Shown here: positions 3,260-14,340 of the stretch, piece by piece
Position numbering within the stretch: position 1 is the stretch's first letter
Layout of the letters: each line of letters starts with the position of its first letter
Source: Flavobacterium sp.
GTDB lineage: Bacteria; Bacteroidota; Bacteroidia; Flavobacteriales; Flavobacteriaceae
DNA length: 43,490 bases
Direction of reading: 5' to 3'
Assembly: GCF_029242675.1 (NCBI RefSeq)
Contig: NZ_JAQWTM010000319.1
Coordinates: 1 to 43,490, forward strand
Position numbers and translations under genes: made by a program
The notes under the pieces: generated by a model
Database searches by the model: none
Told to the model about the DNA's origin: nothing
What the model saw: only the letters and a program-made list of their open reading frames with translations

Positions 3260-3493
3260 TTACTGTGTTTTATTAATTTCGTTAACTTGCCTGTACACAT
3301 TATATAAAGCGAGAGCAACTCCCACCATTACTAAAATCTTACTATAATATACTGTAGGACTAGGGTGATTTTCGTCGAGCCAAGTTCCGAGATAGGCAAA
3401 AAGGAAAATAATAACTCCCATTTGAATGGGAATATTAATTAGCGCCAACCACTTACTAGCTTGTTTTTTGTTGGGCTTGTTTTCCATCGGCAA
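3260..3493 (-). CDS. AtpZ/AtpI family protein
   Basis: 77 aa, KWLALINIPIQMGVIIFLFAYLGTWLDE..., two TM segments, adjacent to F0 genes. Confidence 0.8.
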   Translation of the reverse strand: MPMENKPNKKQASKWLALINIPIQMGVIIFLFAYLGTWLDENHPSPTVYYSKILVMVGVALALYNVYRQVNEINKTQ

Positions 3494-6727: not shown

Positions 6728-7423
6728 TTATACTGCAAAAAATTGCTCTAGTTCTTGTAGTGTTTCTGGTGAGGTTTGGATGTCCTTAACCACCTCGCCT
6801 TTGTGCATAGCAACGATACGGTCGCTTACCTCAACGGTGTGCAATAAATCATGGCTTGAAACTAAAATAGTCACGTTAGGATCAGCCGCTAGTTCCTTGA
6901 TGATTTTTTTAAGGCGGAACTGCGTAGTTGGGTCTAAATTAGCAAAAGGCTCATCGAGAATAATCACCTCAGGATTACCAATAAGAGTAGCGATGATCCC
7001 TACTTTCTTTTGGTTTCCCTTAGATAAGTCACGTAAATACTTTTTATTTTTTAGAATTTCGCCATTAAAAAATTCCTCGTGTTTGGCTAATAATGCATCC
7101 ACATCGGCTTTGTTTTGACCGCGTAAATCGCCTATGAAATAAAAATATTCCTCAGGAGTAAGGTAACCAATAAGGAAACTCTCGTCTAGGAAAGAAGCCG
7201 TAAATGGTTTCCAAGCTTCGCTGGTATTTACTTGTACGCTATTGTTGACGATAGTACCGGTTGTAGGCTGGATTAAATCCAAAAGCAAACTGAAGAAGGT
7301 CGTTTTTCCTGCTCCGTTGTTTCCTACTAAACCAAAGCTTTCGCCTTTTTTAATTTCTAATGAATCGATTTTTAATACGGTGGTACCGTTGTATTTTTTT
7401 GAAAGATTGTTTACTTTAATCAT
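6728..7423 (-). CDS. ABC transporter ATP-binding protein
   Basis: 231 aa, Walker A GLVGNNGAGKTTFF, signature LSKGNQKKVGI, Walker B VIILDEPFANLDP. Confidence 0.97.
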   Translation of the reverse strand: MIKVNNLSKKYNGTTVLKIDSLEIKKGESFGLVGNNGAGKTTFFSLLLDLIQPTTGTIVNNSVQVNTSEAWKPFTASFLDESFLIGYLTPEEYFYFIGDLRGQNKADVDALLAKHEEFFNGEILKNKKYLRDLSKGNQKKVGIIATLIGNPEVIILDEPFANLDPTTQFRLKKIIKELAADPNVTILVSSHDLLHTVEVSDRIVAMHKGEVVKDIQTSPETLQELEQFFAV

Positions 7424-7473
7424 CTTTATAAGTTTTATCGTTGGATTGATTTTTTAGTGTGACTGTATGCTTC

Positions 7474-8943
7474 TTAGCTTTTTTGTTTGTAAGCCACTAT
7501 GGTAGCGTATTTCTCTGATTTGTAGATTTTTTCTATTTGTGAAAACGCCTTGCCTTTTAAGGCTAGACCTAACACACCTACTGCCGCAACTAGTGCTAAA
7601 CCGATGTTCGCTCCGCCATAAGTAGACCCTATCCAATATAAAAATACGGGTAAGCCCAATTGCGGAATGGAGATGATCATGGTTTTGAAGTTAAATGCTT
7701 TTTTGTCTCCAAAGGCACCTTTACCTGAACTTAAATCGATTGGGGTTTTAGTGTACGCACCGCCTAAAAGAACGAGTTGGGAGTTGACACCAATATTATA
7801 AATTCCGCCAACGACAATTGTTAAATAGGTTTGCCATCCAAAATAAAGGTAGAACGATGCTATTAAGGTGGTTACAATAGTTGCAATGACCATTAAATAC
7901 CATTTAGAACTTAAATAGCCTTTGTAGGGAATATTTTGTGTCATCATTAATTGATAATAAGCACTATCCCAACTAGGAACGAATTGCCCAAAAGTGATTA
8001 AGAAACCTCCTGAAACGAAGATTCCAGCAAAAATATGCATGATTGGATTGTTGTACGCCTCGATACTGTTTGTAAAGAATAAAAAACCGTAAAACAGAAA
8101 CATTACACTTAGTCCTACTGTAGTTTTAGAACGCTTGTTTCTCTTGATTAATTTGATATCATTTTTTAAGAAAGTCCCAATGGTTCCAAACTGGTTTAAC
8201 CATACAAGATCCTCGGTTTTAGCCACATCCTGTTTTTGAGAAAGTCCTGCATCGAGGTATAAATTCTTTTTGAAAAACTGAAACGTTAGATAATACATTG
8301 TTCCTAATGCCACTACTGGAATAGCTGCTGCCCAATAGGTATTGAAAAGCGCATCGAAAAATGGTGCTGTATAATCCGTTACATTAAAATAATCATAGTA
8401 ATGCAAGGCGGCAAGCGAAACCGCTACTGCGCCAAAAATAGCAAACAAGTTATCCTTATTACTTAATATAATATTGATGAAATTATTCAGGTACACTAAT
8501 GACAGGATCGAGATAAACCACAATACCACTGCAATTGGATCATACCCTTGAACAATAAGCACAACACTAAACGGAATCAGGAAAAAAGCATGAATGATAT
8601 TGAAAAAAGACAAGGCTGTTTTTCCTAAGGAGAAATGGACAATTGTCGATTTCTTGATTGGAAAAATCAATAATGGTCGAATGTTCATCACAGGAATCTT
8701 TTGAAGAAGCAACCTGAAAATTAAATCGACAATTAAGTAATAGATCATGAATTTATTGACCGTTGCTACAGGATCCAGGTTTGCTTTCTTTAAAATAAAA
8801 AACACACCTATTCCCAATGCTAGGAATATTACAATAAAATAAGCGGCTACAAAACCCATAAGGATTTTTAATGCCAAGTTGGTTGCGAAGGAAGCCGACC
8901 TAAAAAAAGCTTTCCACTCGAGGTAGAGAAATTTTTTAATCAT
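7474..8943 (-). CDS. ABC transporter permease, DUF5687-like
   Basis: 489 aa, about 10-12 hydrophobic segments, MIKKFLYLEWKAFFRSASFATNLALKI; immediately upstream of ATPase on same strand. Confidence 0.88.
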   Translation of the reverse strand: MIKKFLYLEWKAFFRSASFATNLALKILMGFVAAYFIVIFLALGIGVFFILKKANLDPVATVNKFMIYYLIVDLIFRLLLQKIPVMNIRPLLIFPIKKSTIVHFSLGKTALSFFNIIHAFFLIPFSVVLIVQGYDPIAVVLWFISILSLVYLNNFINIILSNKDNLFAIFGAVAVSLAALHYYDYFNVTDYTAPFFDALFNTYWAAAIPVVALGTMYYLTFQFFKKNLYLDAGLSQKQDVAKTEDLVWLNQFGTIGTFLKNDIKLIKRNKRSKTTVGLSVMFLFYGFLFFTNSIEAYNNPIMHIFAGIFVSGGFLITFGQFVPSWDSAYYQLMMTQNIPYKGYLSSKWYLMVIATIVTTLIASFYLYFGWQTYLTIVVGGIYNIGVNSQLVLLGGAYTKTPIDLSSGKGAFGDKKAFNFKTMIISIPQLGLPVFLYWIGSTYGGANIGLALVAAVGVLGLALKGKAFSQIEKIYKSEKYATIVAYKQKS

Positions 8944-8991
8944 GGTTTGATTGTTTTGGTTGTAGGGTAAGTATACTAAAGTAAGAAAACG

Positions 8992-9699
8992 TTACAGCTT
9001 TTCTAGTTTATATTCAGGATAAGTGGCAAACAAATAACTCTCGGCCTTAGACGGAATGATCTTGAAAATGATATAAAAGAATAAACTAAGTGATACTAAA
9101 AAGAAACTCAAACCCATTGTCCAGTAAGCATTGCTAAACAACCTATCAGAATGATTAAACAATTGTGTCATCATATTAAAAGGCAAAATTACTATTCCAG
9201 CAAAATTCCCGTAATGACTTATGATTTCCTCAAATAGCCAGCGCTTTTCTCCGCTTTGTTTTTTGTTTTTCCTTGTTTGATACCCTTTATAGATTTCGTA
9301 AAACATGCCAACTATCAGTACAATATAAAACCCAAAGAAAATATATTCCTTAACTGCACTAAATTGTAAAATAGTAAACAAAGCCAATGTCAATGCTACG
9401 GTCAAAATAATTTTAGGAATACTAAAAAAGTCTTTGAAATGCTGCCAAACGATATGATTGTACTTTTTACTCAAAGCAGCTTGTCGTTTTTCGACCACGT
9501 CCATAAAACCAAAGACTCCAAATTTTTTGAATTCTTTTTGCAGAGCAGCTTCAAAAGAAAGGGTTGGATTTTGCTCCCAATCTGTTTCTATCGCGTTCGC
9601 TAGATGATCCACAAGCTCTGATTGCAAGTCGTACCATTCGACATAATGCTGACGGGTAAAAAGGAATAATTGGTCTATTTGTTCAGTGGTTAGTTTCAT
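8992..9699 (-). CDS. HAAS-like/paralogous membrane protein 1
   Basis: 235 aa, MKLTTEQIDQLFLFTRQHYVEWYDLQSELVDHLANAIE..., then TM segments; paralogous to five neighbours. Confidence 0.85.
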   Translation of the reverse strand: MKLTTEQIDQLFLFTRQHYVEWYDLQSELVDHLANAIETDWEQNPTLSFEAALQKEFKKFGVFGFMDVVEKRQAALSKKYNHIVWQHFKDFFSIPKIILTVALTLALFTILQFSAVKEYIFFGFYIVLIVGMFYEIYKGYQTRKNKKQSGEKRWLFEEIISHYGNFAGIVILPFNMMTQLFNHSDRLFSNAYWTMGLSFFLVSLSLFFYIIFKIIPSKAESYLFATYPEYKLEKL

Positions 9700-9749
9700 G
9701 TTTGAATATTATGAAAAGTGGTTATTTTTTATTTATATTTTTTCTCTAT

Positions 9750-9878
9750 TTTGTCATGCTGAGGAACGAAGCATCCCTGCTTGTTGCTTCAGTTAGTTAT
9801 ATTTTGACTATTAATGTCTAATTTGATGATGTTTGGTTGCCAACTTTATGGAGATGCTTCGTACCTCAGCAGGACAAA
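9750..9878. repeat. Imperfect palindromic intergenic repeat, copy 1
   Basis: Arms TTTGTCATGCTGAGGAACGAAGCATC and GATGCTTCGTACCTCAGCAGGACAAA, inverted with 2 mismatches. Confidence 0.95.
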
Positions 9879-9911
9879 TTTGCTTGCTTATAATATTGCT
9901 TTTTGTTGTAT

Positions 9912-10613
9912 TCATTCAAGTTTATATTCTGGATAAGTAGCTAACAAATAGCTCTCGGCCTTAGACGGAATGATCTTGAAAATGATGAAAAGAAAAACTC
10001 CAAATGATATTAAAAAGAAGCTCAAACCCATTGCCTCATAATCATAAATAAAAAAGTCATCAGACTGATAAAAAACCTGAGACATCATATTAAAAGGAAA
10101 ACTAAGCGCACCTGCCAAGTAACCATAATTATGAATGACTTCCTCAAATAACCATCTTTTTTGGCCACTTTTTTTTCTCTTTTTTCTGTTTTGGTGATTT
10201 TTATAGAGTTCGTAAAACATAGCAACGAACAATAAAAGGTAAATTCCAATGAAAATATATCGACTATTTACACTTAATTTTAAAATGATAAACAAGCCTA
10301 ATATTGCAGCTATTGTTGATATAATTTTAGGGAAACTAAAAAAATCTTTAAAATACTCGCAGACAATTTTGTAGTACTTTTTCTTAAGTACCCCTCGTCT
10401 TTTTTCGACCACATCTACAAAACCAAAGACTCCAAATTTTTTGAATTCATTTTGCAGAGCAGCTTCAAAAGAAATTGTTGGGTTTTGCTCCCAATCTGTT
10501 TCTATCGCGTTCGCTAGATGATCCACAAGCTCTGATTGCAAGTCGTACCATTCGACATAATGCTGACGGGTAAAAAGGAATAATTGGTCTATTTGTTCGG
10601 TGGTTAGTTTCAT
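9912..10613 (-). CDS. HAAS-like/paralogous membrane protein 2
   Basis: 233 aa; first ~70 aa and last ~15 aa nearly identical to paralogue 1, middle divergent. Confidence 0.85.
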   Translation of the reverse strand: MKLTTEQIDQLFLFTRQHYVEWYDLQSELVDHLANAIETDWEQNPTISFEAALQNEFKKFGVFGFVDVVEKRRGVLKKKYYKIVCEYFKDFFSFPKIISTIAAILGLFIILKLSVNSRYIFIGIYLLLFVAMFYELYKNHQNRKKRKKSGQKRWLFEEVIHNYGYLAGALSFPFNMMSQVFYQSDDFFIYDYEAMGLSFFLISFGVFLFIIFKIIPSKAESYLLATYPEYKLE

Positions 10614-10662
10614 GTTTGAATATTATGAAAAGTGGTTATTTTCTATTTATATTTTTCTCTAT

Positions 10663-10795
10663 TTTGTCATGATGAGGTACGAAGCAACTCTACTCGTTGC
10701 TCTACTTAATTTTTTATTTATTCAACTTATAAGTACTACTTCCCTTTATTTATTTGCCTAATTTGAGGAGATGCTTCGTACCTCAGCAAGACAAA
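10663..10795. repeat. Imperfect palindromic intergenic repeat, copy 2
   Basis: Arms TTTGTCATGATGAGGTACGAAGCA and ATGCTTCGTACCTCAGCAAGACAAA. Confidence 0.93.
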
Positions 10796-10812
10796 TTTGT
10801 GTGATGACGGTT

Positions 10813-11481
10813 TTATGTTAGTTGGTATTGTTTTTTGATATTCTTAATTGTCTTTTTACTAAGATAAATTGCAGTAATAGAGAACAAAATTGTAAATACC
10901 CAAATGCAACAAAATAGTAAAACCAACCACTGATACCGGAGTAATTCGTTTCTTAAATAGCTCGAAGAACTCATCCCTAAATTTGAAAAAGATATAATCA
11001 ATCCACTACTAGTTAATCTATTTACCATTAAAAACTTCTTGCCATCAATTTCCTTATTTTTCCACAAATAAAAAGAAAGAGGTAAAGTAATAATCAATGA
11101 ACTACAAAATAGCACTGCTATGTATTTTTGTGGACTAACAAAGTATGCTGAAATGGTATATACAAAATAAACGAGCACAAGACTACCAACGATTTTTGGA
11201 AACGTTAAATATTCAGCAATCATTTTTCTGTGTTCTTTAGCTAGTTCTTTACTTAAAATTTTGGCGCGTTCTTTTTCAATCGCTTTTAATTCTGGCTTTG
11301 CGATTTTTTTAAACGTCTTTTCTTGTACTTGCTCAAAAGACAAGTCCGGATTTTGTTCCCAAAATTCCTCCATACTCAAAACCATGTGATCGGTGAGTTC
11401 TAATTGCAACTCATACCACTTGATATCTTTGGATTCAATGTAATTGGATATGTATTGTATTTGTTCGTTGGTTAGGTTCAT
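10813..11481 (-). CDS. HAAS-like/paralogous membrane protein 3
   Basis: 222 aa, MNLTNEQIQYISNYIESKDIKWYELQLELTDHMVLSMEEFWEQNPDLSF..., TM segments, C-term IKNIKKQYQLT. Confidence 0.85.
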   Translation of the reverse strand: MNLTNEQIQYISNYIESKDIKWYELQLELTDHMVLSMEEFWEQNPDLSFEQVQEKTFKKIAKPELKAIEKERAKILSKELAKEHRKMIAEYLTFPKIVGSLVLVYFVYTISAYFVSPQKYIAVLFCSSLIITLPLSFYLWKNKEIDGKKFLMVNRLTSSGLIISFSNLGMSSSSYLRNELLRYQWLVLLFCCIWVFTILFSITAIYLSKKTIKNIKKQYQLT

Positions 11482-11531
11482 ATTTAGATATTATCAAAGG
11501 TGGTTATTTTGTATTTATGATTTTCCTCTAT

Positions 11532-11666
11532 TTTGTCATGCTGAGGAACGAAGCATCCCTGATTGTTGCTCCTTTTAGTTACTTCAATTTAATCAACTTA
11601 TAAGTCTTACTTCCCCTTATTTATTTGCCCAATTTGATGAGATGCTTCGTTCCTCAGCAGGACAAA
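11532..11666. repeat. Imperfect palindromic intergenic repeat, copy 3
   Basis: Arms TTTGTCATGCTGAGGAACGAAGCATC and GATGCTTCGTTCCTCAGCAGGACAAA (one mismatch). Confidence 0.95.
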
Positions 11667-11683
11667 TTTGTGTGATGACGGTG

Positions 11684-12355
11684 TTATGTTAGTTGGTATT
11701 GCTTTTTGATATTCTCAACTATTTTATTTTGAATGTGAATTCCAGTAATTAAAAATATTAGTCCCAAAACCCAAAATAAACAGAAAGGTAATATCAAAAT
11801 TGGATATTGTTGAATCAACACTTTAAAGGAATTTAATAAAAATAGTATCCAATACATAATTCCGAAGATTCCAGTATAAGTTCCATGGTTAATGTTTAAT
11901 TCTAAAAACCGTTTTCCTTGAATCTTTCTATTCCTGCAATAAGAATATAGGATTGGAATAGCTAAAATTGCTAAGAAAGCAAATGACTTTCCAACCAATT
12001 TAATTGGTTCATTAAAATAAAAAGTAGCCTTGTATATAATAAAAACGAATAATATACTTCCCAAAATTTTAGGAAACTTTAAGTATTCCTTTGCCAACTT
12101 CCATTGGTTTTTTCTGAACTCTTTCTTAAGAATTTGAGTTCGCTCTTCTTCAATGGCTTTAAAACCATTTCTACCAAATTTATCCTCAGCATAGTGTTTT
12201 ACTTGATGAAAAGTGAGTTCAGGATCAGCTGTCCAAAATTCCTCCATACTCGAAACCATGTGATCGGTGAGTTCTAATTGTAACTCATACCATTTGATAT
12301 CTTTAGAAATGATATAATTCTCTACGTATTCTATTTGTTCGTTGGTTAGTTTCAT
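11684..12355 (-). CDS. HAAS-like/paralogous membrane protein 4
   Basis: 223 aa, MKLTNEQIEYVENYIISKDIKWYELQLELTDHMVSSMEEFW..., C-term VENIKKQYQLT. Confidence 0.85.
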   Translation of the reverse strand: MKLTNEQIEYVENYIISKDIKWYELQLELTDHMVSSMEEFWTADPELTFHQVKHYAEDKFGRNGFKAIEEERTQILKKEFRKNQWKLAKEYLKFPKILGSILFVFIIYKATFYFNEPIKLVGKSFAFLAILAIPILYSYCRNRKIQGKRFLELNINHGTYTGIFGIMYWILFLLNSFKVLIQQYPILILPFCLFWVLGLIFLITGIHIQNKIVENIKKQYQLT

Positions 12356-12405
12356 ATTTAGATATTATGAAAGGTGGTTATTTTGTATTTATATTTTTTC
12401 TTTAT

Positions 12406-12540
12406 TTTGTCATGCTGAGGAACGAAGCATCCCTGCTTGTTGTTCCACTTAATTACTTCAATTTAGTCAACTTATAATTATGCTATCCCTTTATTTATTT
12501 GCCCAATTTGATGAGATGCTTCGTGCCTTAGCAAGACAAA
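12406..12540. repeat. Imperfect palindromic intergenic repeat, copy 4
   Basis: Arms TTTGTCATGCTGAGGAACGAAGCATC and GATGCTTCGTGCCTTAGCAAGACAAA. Confidence 0.93.
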
Positions 12541-12578
12541 TTGTTTGTTACACTTAGGAGTTTAAGGCAGCATATGAA

Positions 12579-13235
12579 TTACTGAAATGATAATTTTTTT
12601 TCGAATTGAAAATGCTTCAAGACCAATTGTAACACTAAAAACATACTGAATAGCATCCAAAAAGAAGATATAACAAGTAGTATTTGATTTCGTAATTCGT
12701 TAGGTGTTGGAGAAAAGCAAATTGGATAAACAAACATCAAAAAAGCGATTTGTCGCTCTTTAAAATTATGTTGAAATGAAGTTTTGTGCTTTGCCTTTAA
12801 AAATTTAATATTACTTGCAACAAGGAGTAAGCCACCAAGAAGGTATAAAAAACGAGTTCCAACTTGAACATTCTGTGTGATTGCTTTAGCGTCAAAAAAT
12901 GAAGCCAAACCATAGAAAACGATCAAAACAACTACCGATGATAGTAATCCAATCCATAACTGTTTTTTTACAAGAACTAGTTTTTTTTCTAAGACAATCT
13001 TTGGGTACTTTACGCTTAGTCCAGTCAGAAATGAACTTGTTGGTTGCAATTCTTCAGACCATTTATCAAGTACTATTTTAAAATTGTCATCAAATGAAAG
13101 CTTATTTTCATCCATTTTAACTTCTACTTCAGTAGCGATATGGTCCATGATTTCCAGTTTAGTGTCGTCGAATTTAAGTCCGTTTAAAACTAAAATGGAA
13201 TCTATAAAGTCAATTTGTTCGGTTGTTAATTGCAT
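12579..13235 (-). CDS. HAAS-like/paralogous membrane protein 5
   Basis: 218 aa, MQLTTEQIDFIDSILVLNGLKFDDTKLEIMDHIATEVE..., TM segments, C-term LKHFQFEKKLSFQ. Confidence 0.85.
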   Translation of the reverse strand: MQLTTEQIDFIDSILVLNGLKFDDTKLEIMDHIATEVEVKMDENKLSFDDNFKIVLDKWSEELQPTSSFLTGLSVKYPKIVLEKKLVLVKKQLWIGLLSSVVVLIVFYGLASFFDAKAITQNVQVGTRFLYLLGGLLLVASNIKFLKAKHKTSFQHNFKERQIAFLMFVYPICFSPTPNELRNQILLVISSFWMLFSMFLVLQLVLKHFQFEKKLSFQ

Positions 13236-13238
13236 GGT

Positions 13239-13910
13239 TTATTGAATTTTTAATTTTTTTTCAAATTGAAAATGTTTGACCGCAAGCATCGCATAAAATC
13301 CTGATGCAATTATCATTACAACTGGCAAAAAAATAGTCATAAAATTAAAATTAGATAATTCCTCATTTGCCTTAAATTGTAATATGCCAGCAGCAATAGC
13401 AATAAGATTAAATATTTGGATCAAACCATTTCGATCAAATAAATAGCGGAAGGATGAATATTGTTTTGATTTCAATAGTTTATACTTGGCCAATAGCAGA
13501 AAAACAATAGCCGTAATTGCACAACCTTTTAAAACGGTGTTTAGGTTATCAATAATTTCGTTATTGGCTGCATTTTTAATAAGTACTGTAACTATAATTG
13601 CAAAAACTAAACCTAAGCTTAAAGACATCTTAAAAACGTCAAGCATCATTTTATTGCATTTTAGAATGACCATTTTAGGAATGGGATTTGTCCCCCATAT
13701 CCACATAGAAGTACTCGGTCTTAATTGTTCCTGCCAATCTGTAAATACGGCAACTAAAGCTTCATCAAATGACGTATTATTTTTATTTAGTAGTACTTCA
13801 ATTTCTGTAGCAATATGATCTATAACTTCAAGTTTTAAATCATCATAAATAAGACCGTTTAAAACTAAAGTTTTTTCGATAAGATCTATTTGTTCGGTTG
13901 TTAATTGCAT
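13239..13910 (-). CDS. HAAS-like/paralogous membrane protein 6
   Basis: 223 aa, MQLTTEQIDLIEKTLVLNGLIYDDLKLEVIDHIATEIE..., C-term VKHFQFEKKLKIQ. Confidence 0.85.
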   Translation of the reverse strand: MQLTTEQIDLIEKTLVLNGLIYDDLKLEVIDHIATEIEVLLNKNNTSFDEALVAVFTDWQEQLRPSTSMWIWGTNPIPKMVILKCNKMMLDVFKMSLSLGLVFAIIVTVLIKNAANNEIIDNLNTVLKGCAITAIVFLLLAKYKLLKSKQYSSFRYLFDRNGLIQIFNLIAIAAGILQFKANEELSNFNFMTIFLPVVMIIASGFYAMLAVKHFQFEKKLKIQ

Positions 13911-13920
13911 GTCCTATAAA

Positions 13921-14262
13921 TTAAAATTCTAAACTCAGCTTTGGGTTCACTAAACTCTGCATGTTTTTAATAAAATCTTCCAGCTCAGCCAGTCGGTTTA
14001 CCGTTTCTTTCGTGCCTGCCTCAGTAAGTTTGTAATATTTACGCATTCGGTTATCAACCTTAGCGATTTCAACATCTAGAATTCCTTCGGCTTCTAGTTT
14101 ATGCAAAGCTGGATACAAAGCACCCTCAGTAATATTAAGTTCGCCTTGCGTAATCGCCTTTACTTTTTGAGTGATTTCATAACCGTACATCTTACCATTT
14201 TCTTCCAGTAACTTCATGATAATGGTGTTTAAACTCCCCTTATATAATTGTGAATTTTTCAT
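13921..14262 (-). CDS. PadR family transcriptional regulator
   Basis: 113 aa, GSLNTIIMKLLEENGKMYGYEITQKVKAITQGELNITEGALYPALHKLEAEGILDVE, PadR winged helix. Confidence 0.95.
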   Translation of the reverse strand: MKNSQLYKGSLNTIIMKLLEENGKMYGYEITQKVKAITQGELNITEGALYPALHKLEAEGILDVEIAKVDNRMRKYYKLTEAGTKETVNRLAELEDFIKNMQSLVNPKLSLEF

Positions 14263-14282: not shown

Positions 14283-14310
14283 CAAATATACATAAGATTC
14301 TTATACATAA
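14283..14310 (-). promoter_or_regulatory. Putative PadR promoter/operator: TATATTTG -7 box overlapped by palindromic/direct-repeat core
   Basis: CAAATATA (minus TATATTTG) at 14283-14290; TATACATAA at 14287-14295 and 14302-14310; palindrome ATAAGA-T-TCTTAT at 14292-14304. Confidence 0.5.
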
Positions 14311-14340
14311 CAGTTTTAGGTATGTAAATTTTTCAAAGTC

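Follow-up and report, generated by a model that had tools for sequence, protein, structure and literature searches.

The window, a 43,490-bp stretch of DNA comprising positions 1–43,490 of contig NZ_JAQWTM010000319.1 in the 3.5-Mb draft genome of a Flavobacterium sp., carries at positions 6728–14262 of its minus strand a cluster in which one PadR-family regulator precedes six small paralogous membrane proteins (H1–H6), a DUF5687 membrane protein and an ABC ATPase. We find that H1–H6 have in common an N-terminal domain of ~65 residues (the N-domain), followed by four predicted transmembrane (TM) helices in membrane parts that are otherwise divergent, and that in relatives this domain stands beside PadR almost without exception. 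The reading that we favor, with somewhat better than even confidence, is a single autoregulated signaling operon whose paralogues sense the envelope with their TM parts and make contact with PadR through their N-domains, and whose output is the exporter. It draws on the PadR linkage, the occurrence of the N-domain on unrelated TM parts, the modeled architecture of three helices plus four TM helices and the loop charges, as well as on a conserved and unique upstream dyad, abutting genes in relatives, purifying selection on H6 and the precedent of the Listeria lltR operon (PMC6624303).

Gene calls and matches to PF03551, PF18940 and PF00005 bear out the original prediction of a regulator, six small membrane proteins, a permease and an ATPase on a single strand. 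The order is PadR (13921–14262, 113 amino acids (aa); PF03551, E = 6.3 × 10−21), H1 (13239–13910, 223 aa), H2 (12579–13235, 218 aa), H3 (11684–12355, 223 aa), H4 (10813–11481, 222 aa), H5 (9912–10613, 233 aa), H6 (8992–9699, 235 aa), the DUF5687 protein, presumed to be the ABC permease (7474–8943, 489 aa; PF18940, E = 1.7 × 10−197), and the ATPase (6728–7423, 231 aa; PF00005, E = 6.9 × 10−22). The regulator scores 74.6 bits against a gathering score of 27 for PF03551, which places it in the PadR family. From PadR to the ATPase, the intergenic gaps measure 10, 3, 223, 202, 199, 212, 48 and 50 bp, and H1–H6 are the only family members detected in the whole genome. We found no paper on DUF5687 in the literature.

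The N-terminal motif that had been noticed in all six proteins reflects a real relationship. Profiles of the H6 and H1 clades align with an hhalign probability of 98.3 (E = 1.1 × 10−14) over 58 N-terminal columns, and E28, D31, H32, E38 and F48/49 are invariant or nearly invariant across H1–H6. AlphaFold2 models of H1 (predicted local distance difference test 90, predicted template modeling score 0.82) and H6 (82 and 0.69, respectively) place three predicted N-terminal helices, at residues 5–17, 23–44 and then 48–63 in H1 or 49–91 in H6, ahead of four long hydrophobic helices, and the loop charges of the paralogues are compatible with a predicted topology in which both termini are inside; both the four-TM fold and the topology are predictions. 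A Foldseek search of the PDB with the H1 and H6 models returned nothing at E < 0.001, whole-chain TM models being a poor query for a small domain. Between H6 and its F. kayseriense orthologue, the proportion of nonsynonymous differences (pN) is 0.05 in the N-part and 0.03 in the TM part, against proportions of synonymous differences (pS) of 0.56 and 0.43, which points to strong purifying selection on both modules.

The association with PadR holds at two taxonomic depths. We identified the family in 43 of 150 related genomes and assembled 81 Flavobacteriales loci (80 fetched plus the window), in 80 of which PadR lies upstream on the same strand, within 150 bp in 75; the exception is a contig edge. 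An N-domain-only profile detected the domain in 104 of 395 Bacteroidia genomes and in 66 of 196 genera, and of 44 distinct loci examined across the class, 43 have PadR next to this gene, the remaining one again being a contig edge. The C-terminal partners of the domain range from the four-TM part to GldL_N-like TM hairpins, GldL_N with the GldM first domain, and duplicated MacB_PCD/FtsX permeases (L246–L248; MacB_PCD E values down to 9 × 10−37). L249 carries GldL_N and the GldM first domain (E = 2.4 × 10−13), and L252 the first and second GldM domains (E = 1.2 × 10−31 and 1.6 × 10−11). Among PadR-linked proteins with an unrelated TM part, L089, L090 and L087 match the N profile with E values of 2 × 10−10 to 7 × 10−7 and the TM profile not at all or with E = 1.3; the GldL-type proteins are recognized by the N profile and not by the TM-only profile. 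Strict PadR linkage together with interchangeable C-termini argues for an adaptor role of the N-domain. The GldL- and GldM-like parts of the PadR-linked fusions (L249, 3755–5032; L252, 4825–6498; L265, 3942–5333), which consist of GldL-like hairpins and/or the GldM first domain, resemble components of the type IX secretion and gliding motor; we found no relevant paper linking PadR and GldL.

A PadR-coupled family that joins a conserved N-domain to variable TM regions, with an ABC exporter alongside, is the HAAS–PadR arrangement of PMC11237479. That paper describes HAAS as a three-helix domain that is encoded next to PadR and precedes TM or permease domains of various kinds, and such pairs are put forward there as alternatives to two-component systems. 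The original prediction assigned H1–H6 to HAAS, and that assignment stands as far as PadR linkage and architecture go and does not at the level of sequence profiles. The Pfam models HAAS (PF22564), DUF1700, DUF1129 and DUF1048 match none of H1–H6, nor any of the 101 proteins that make up alignments A3 and A4. Comparison of the N-domain with HAAS and HAAS–PspC proteins of the class by hhalign is not significant (E = 0.04–0.3 per single comparison, without realignment), with scores within those of column-shuffled controls. The GxP motif, which kinks the third helix and defines HAAS, is missing from five of the six paralogues: its place is taken by FGVFGF in H5 and H6, FGRNGF in H3 and WQEQLRP or WSEELQP in H1 and H2, and H4 alone has a proline there (AKPE). 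The remaining hallmarks of HAAS are all found, namely three consecutive N-terminal helices (in the H1 and H6 models), a standalone PadR as constant neighbor (in the 80 of 81 and 43 of 44 loci above) and attachment to the N-terminus of diverse TM domains, FtsX/MacB permeases among them.

Among curated models, NCBIfam NF038403 (‘permease prefix domain 1’) comes nearest; it matches the same residues recurrently and below its cut-off: the best score in N-domain loci is 27.6 bits and the curated cut-off 30, so this family is never above it. N-domain loci account for 15 of the 42 class-wide NF038403 matches (E up to 0.01), and the window genome has no match to the model. The sole Bacteroidia protein above the cut-off, L266, also adjoins PadR, and it aligns with the N-domain weakly, in register, over helices 2–3 (47 columns, E = 0.018). 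Because there is no Pfam match and the profile comparison is not significant, HAAS is not established by sequence; the N-domain is probably a divergent relative that is HAAS-like in architecture, and we do not file it as HAAS. That the label is right in kind, by the behavior of the domain and not by profile, is well supported. The Flavobacterium operon is a lineage-specific variant of the predicted PadR–HAAS signaling pair, with a probably self-regulating PadR. It shares with the systems of PMC11237479 (there, dyads of HAAS and a PadR-like winged helix-turn-helix protein) a standalone PadR next to a protein whose three-helix N-terminus is joined to multi-TM parts that vary, four-TM and MacB/FtsX fusions among them, and differs in its FGxxGF-type or WxxxLxP-type motifs in place of GxP and in its tandem arrays of up to six per PadR; the GldL/GldM-like fusions have no mention in that paper. 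Our literature search found no experimental work on HAAS–PadR pairs in Bacteroidota.

Upstream of the regulator gene, a predicted PadR operator at 14288–14323 comprises a dyad, ATACATAACAGTTTTAGGTAT (14303–14323), and a second half-site pair, TATGTATAAGAATCTTATGTAT (14288–14309). Of the 74 orthologous upstream regions, 73 contain the dyad, of the form ATACMTAA-N5-TTATGTAT, with up to two mismatches (mean after shuffling, 0.05); in the genome it occurs only once. The adjoining half-site pair overlaps a Bacteroidetes −7-like element, TATATTTG (TAnnTTTG; 14283–14290, minus strand), the only one in the intergenic stretches of the cluster on this strand. A conserved, single dyad over a −7-like element predicts PadR autoregulation directed mainly at its own operon, and we infer from these sequence features that PadR would bind the candidate dyad. 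In one relative (L086, genome G070), the −7-like element reads TATATTTA.

Six tandem copies, which had been singled out as an unusual expansion, are at the top of the Flavobacterium range of one to six and are not unique to the window. The copies number one in 17 loci, two in 30, three in 19, four in 8, five in 5 and six in 2 (n = 81), the last two being the window and F. sandaracinum; G033, from a separate set, also has six. The protein tree has three main groups, transporter-proximal (H5 and H6), middle (H3 and H4) and PadR-proximal (H1 and H2), so that the six copies represent three pairs of different age and not one burst. Orthologues of the transporter-proximal copy occur across the genus, and this copy clusters with the single copies that other families of the order have. 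A DUF5687 exporter follows the array in 61 of the 81 loci, and in many relatives the genes of the cluster abut or overlap. Of the named species found, F. kayseriense (L135) is the closest: it has three copies, and its nucleotide sequence is 88% identical to the window in a 3.3-kb stretch that starts at the end of the H5–H6 gap and runs through the exporter. Two of the five paralogues in G019 (L051, 6114–7474) appear broken by frameshift or truncation, evidence that loss in the array is ongoing. In G070 (L086, 6450–7730), the PadR, DUF5687 and ATPase frames are open, and the array is a remnant with in-frame stops beside a GIY-YIG element.

Recombination at the boundary between the two modules has occurred among the copies of the array. 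H5 and H6 differ at a pS of 0.09 in the N-part (codons 1–65; 10419–10613 in H5 and 9505–9699 in H6, minus strand) and 0.54 in the TM part, with a best breakpoint at codon 65 that none of 2,000 permutations reached. The N-part value lies far below the pS between H6 and its F. kayseriense orthologue (0.56, with 0.43 in the TM part and no significant break), so the N-module was homogenized after the split from that species, a mosaic sequence pattern indicating gene conversion. G084 provides a mirror case, with a pS of 0.02 in the TM part, 0.49 in the N-part and a break at codon 58. The 81 loci yield five informative pairs of copies from the same genome, of which four are significantly mosaic, three of them with breaks at codons 65–68. 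We rejected the idea that breakpoints are generally driven to the module boundary because a test with pairs picked irrespective of it gave only a moderate excess there (20 of 92 in codons 55–80 versus 12% expected, with codons 20–39 also in excess and the pairs not independent); the boundary claim is accordingly made for individual cases and not as a general rule.

All four ~200-bp gaps contain a 26-bp inverted repeat, TTTGTCATGCTGAGGAACGAAGCATC, with 77–83 bp between its arms (eight sites, none expected). The elements lie between H2 and H3 (12406–12540; arms 12406–12431 and 12515–12540), H3 and H4 (11532–11666; arms 11532–11557 and 11641–11666), H4 and H5 (10663–10795; arms 10663–10688 and 10770–10795) and H5 and H6 (9750–9878; arms 9750–9775 and 9853–9878). 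In ten fetched relatives, the arms are ~385 bp apart and surround a GIY-YIG-type frame, nearly all between these paralogue genes, whereas F. sandaracinum has the short version seen in the window. Because the arms of the relatives enclose this gene, the window copies are, judging by their sequence, probably deletion derivatives of the GIY-YIG element. The ~410-bp form, with 26-bp inverted repeats around a frame of ~105 aa, is present in L135 (6537–6950), L140, L143–L146, L150, L153 and L086 (6916–7417), and gene-less short forms in the window and L138. Allowing up to three mismatches, we count 28 occurrences of the 26-bp repeat in the draft genome, some of them in arrays on contigs C82 (L121, 350–1430), where related repeats are spaced about 108 bp, and C326 (L122, 2383–3818), where the spacing is irregular and often about 215 bp. 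The draft genome also has GIY-YIG genes, which these repeats do not flank, and Y1-type transposase genes.

Related operons have been studied in Listeria. There, the PadR protein LltR represses its own operon, lltR–lmo0600 (DUF1700)–lmo0601 (PMC6624303), and lftRS pairs a PadR protein with a DUF1048 protein, with a link to ABC drug export through LftR–LieAB (PMC4517056). These systems resemble the present cluster in combining PadR with a DUF1700 or DUF1048 protein, in autoregulation (LltR) and in the export link (LftR–LieAB), and differ in having one partner per PadR, in belonging to other protein families by sequence and in being Gram-positive.

In the operon that we propose, PadR would repress one promoter, upstream of padR itself, and H1–H6 would be inner-membrane proteins with both termini inside. 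The conserved three-helix N-domain would be the PadR-contacting part, and the divergent four-TM parts would sense a membrane or envelope property or a membrane-active compound. On receipt of a signal by any one of these parts, the attached N-domain would change and PadR would come off the operator, and this release would induce the operon, including the DUF5687/ABC exporter. The array would expand and contract by recombination between copies, which could homogenize the PadR-facing module while the sensing modules stay distinct. In this scheme we infer that the genes are co-transcribed, that the N-domain binds PadR, that the TM parts sense and that the exporter is the output; several points weigh against the scheme. 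LftS is dispensable for repression of the LieAB exporter by LftR (PMC4517056), and a ligand-induced mechanism has been proposed, according to the title of PMC6457526, for LftR itself. The exporter follows in only 61 of 81 loci, and the four ~200-bp gaps could interrupt co-transcription.

The Listeria findings fit a rather unlikely alternative in which PadR itself senses small molecules and H1–H6 serve as accessory components or targets of the operon, such as exporter partners or membrane protectants, and not as upstream sensors. Deletion of LftS had no effect on LftR repression of LieA (PMC4517056), the mechanism named in the title of PMC6457526 is ligand-induced, and the transporter-proximal copy is orthologous across the genus; however, about a quarter of loci lack an adjoining exporter (some solely because of contig ends), and an N-domain that sits on unrelated C-termini yet beside PadR class-wide is better explained by a PadR-facing adaptor. 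It is improbable, in our view, that copy number is largely neutral, with recombination between repeats or genes adding and deleting copies and six versus three having no signaling meaning. The repeat elements in the four gaps, the three copies of the closest named species, the degraded copies in G019 and the one remnant with stops kept by G070 favor that idea, but the paralogue clades are old and many species have kept them with TM parts that differ, purifying selection acts on H6 and its orthologue, and arrays of up to six occur without the repeat element (G033). We also doubt that PadR, H1 and H2 form one unit and that H3–H6 and the exporter are driven separately, from two or more transcripts in all. 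Gaps of 199–223 bp before H3, H4, H5 and H6 are suggestive of such a division, but these gaps hold no −7-like element on this strand and are filled by inserted repeat elements, and the genes abut in many relatives.

Beyond the operon proposed for the window, we tentatively suggest, at less than even confidence, that a PadR-linked Bacteroidia adaptor domain without a Pfam model plugs many membrane modules into one repressor, and that Flavobacterium arrays swap or homogenize adaptor and sensing modules separately by boundary recombination, yielding a one-repressor, many-sensor system whose diversity arises from the exchange of modules. The interest of the family lies in a widespread PadR-linked domain that lacks a Pfam model, a precise operator candidate, a natural one-to-six copy series and module-swapped paralogues; the last three make the question of many inputs to one PadR directly testable in culturable Flavobacterium.

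Two further loci were considered. A 77-aa open reading frame at 3260–3493 (minus strand) was matched by an iterated full-length profile over TM columns only and was rejected as a family member, being a TM artefact that resembles a two-TM AtpZ/AtpI-type protein. A second PadR in the same genome (G000, contig C104; L124, 5114–8866), annotated by eye, is followed by a HAAS-type protein that appears PspC-fused and then by two DUF2807/Toastrack-like proteins. As at the main locus, PadR comes directly before a membrane protein that begins with a helical domain; in contrast to that locus, the protein has a HAAS-type start with GxP (MGQP) and is present in a single copy, with no array.

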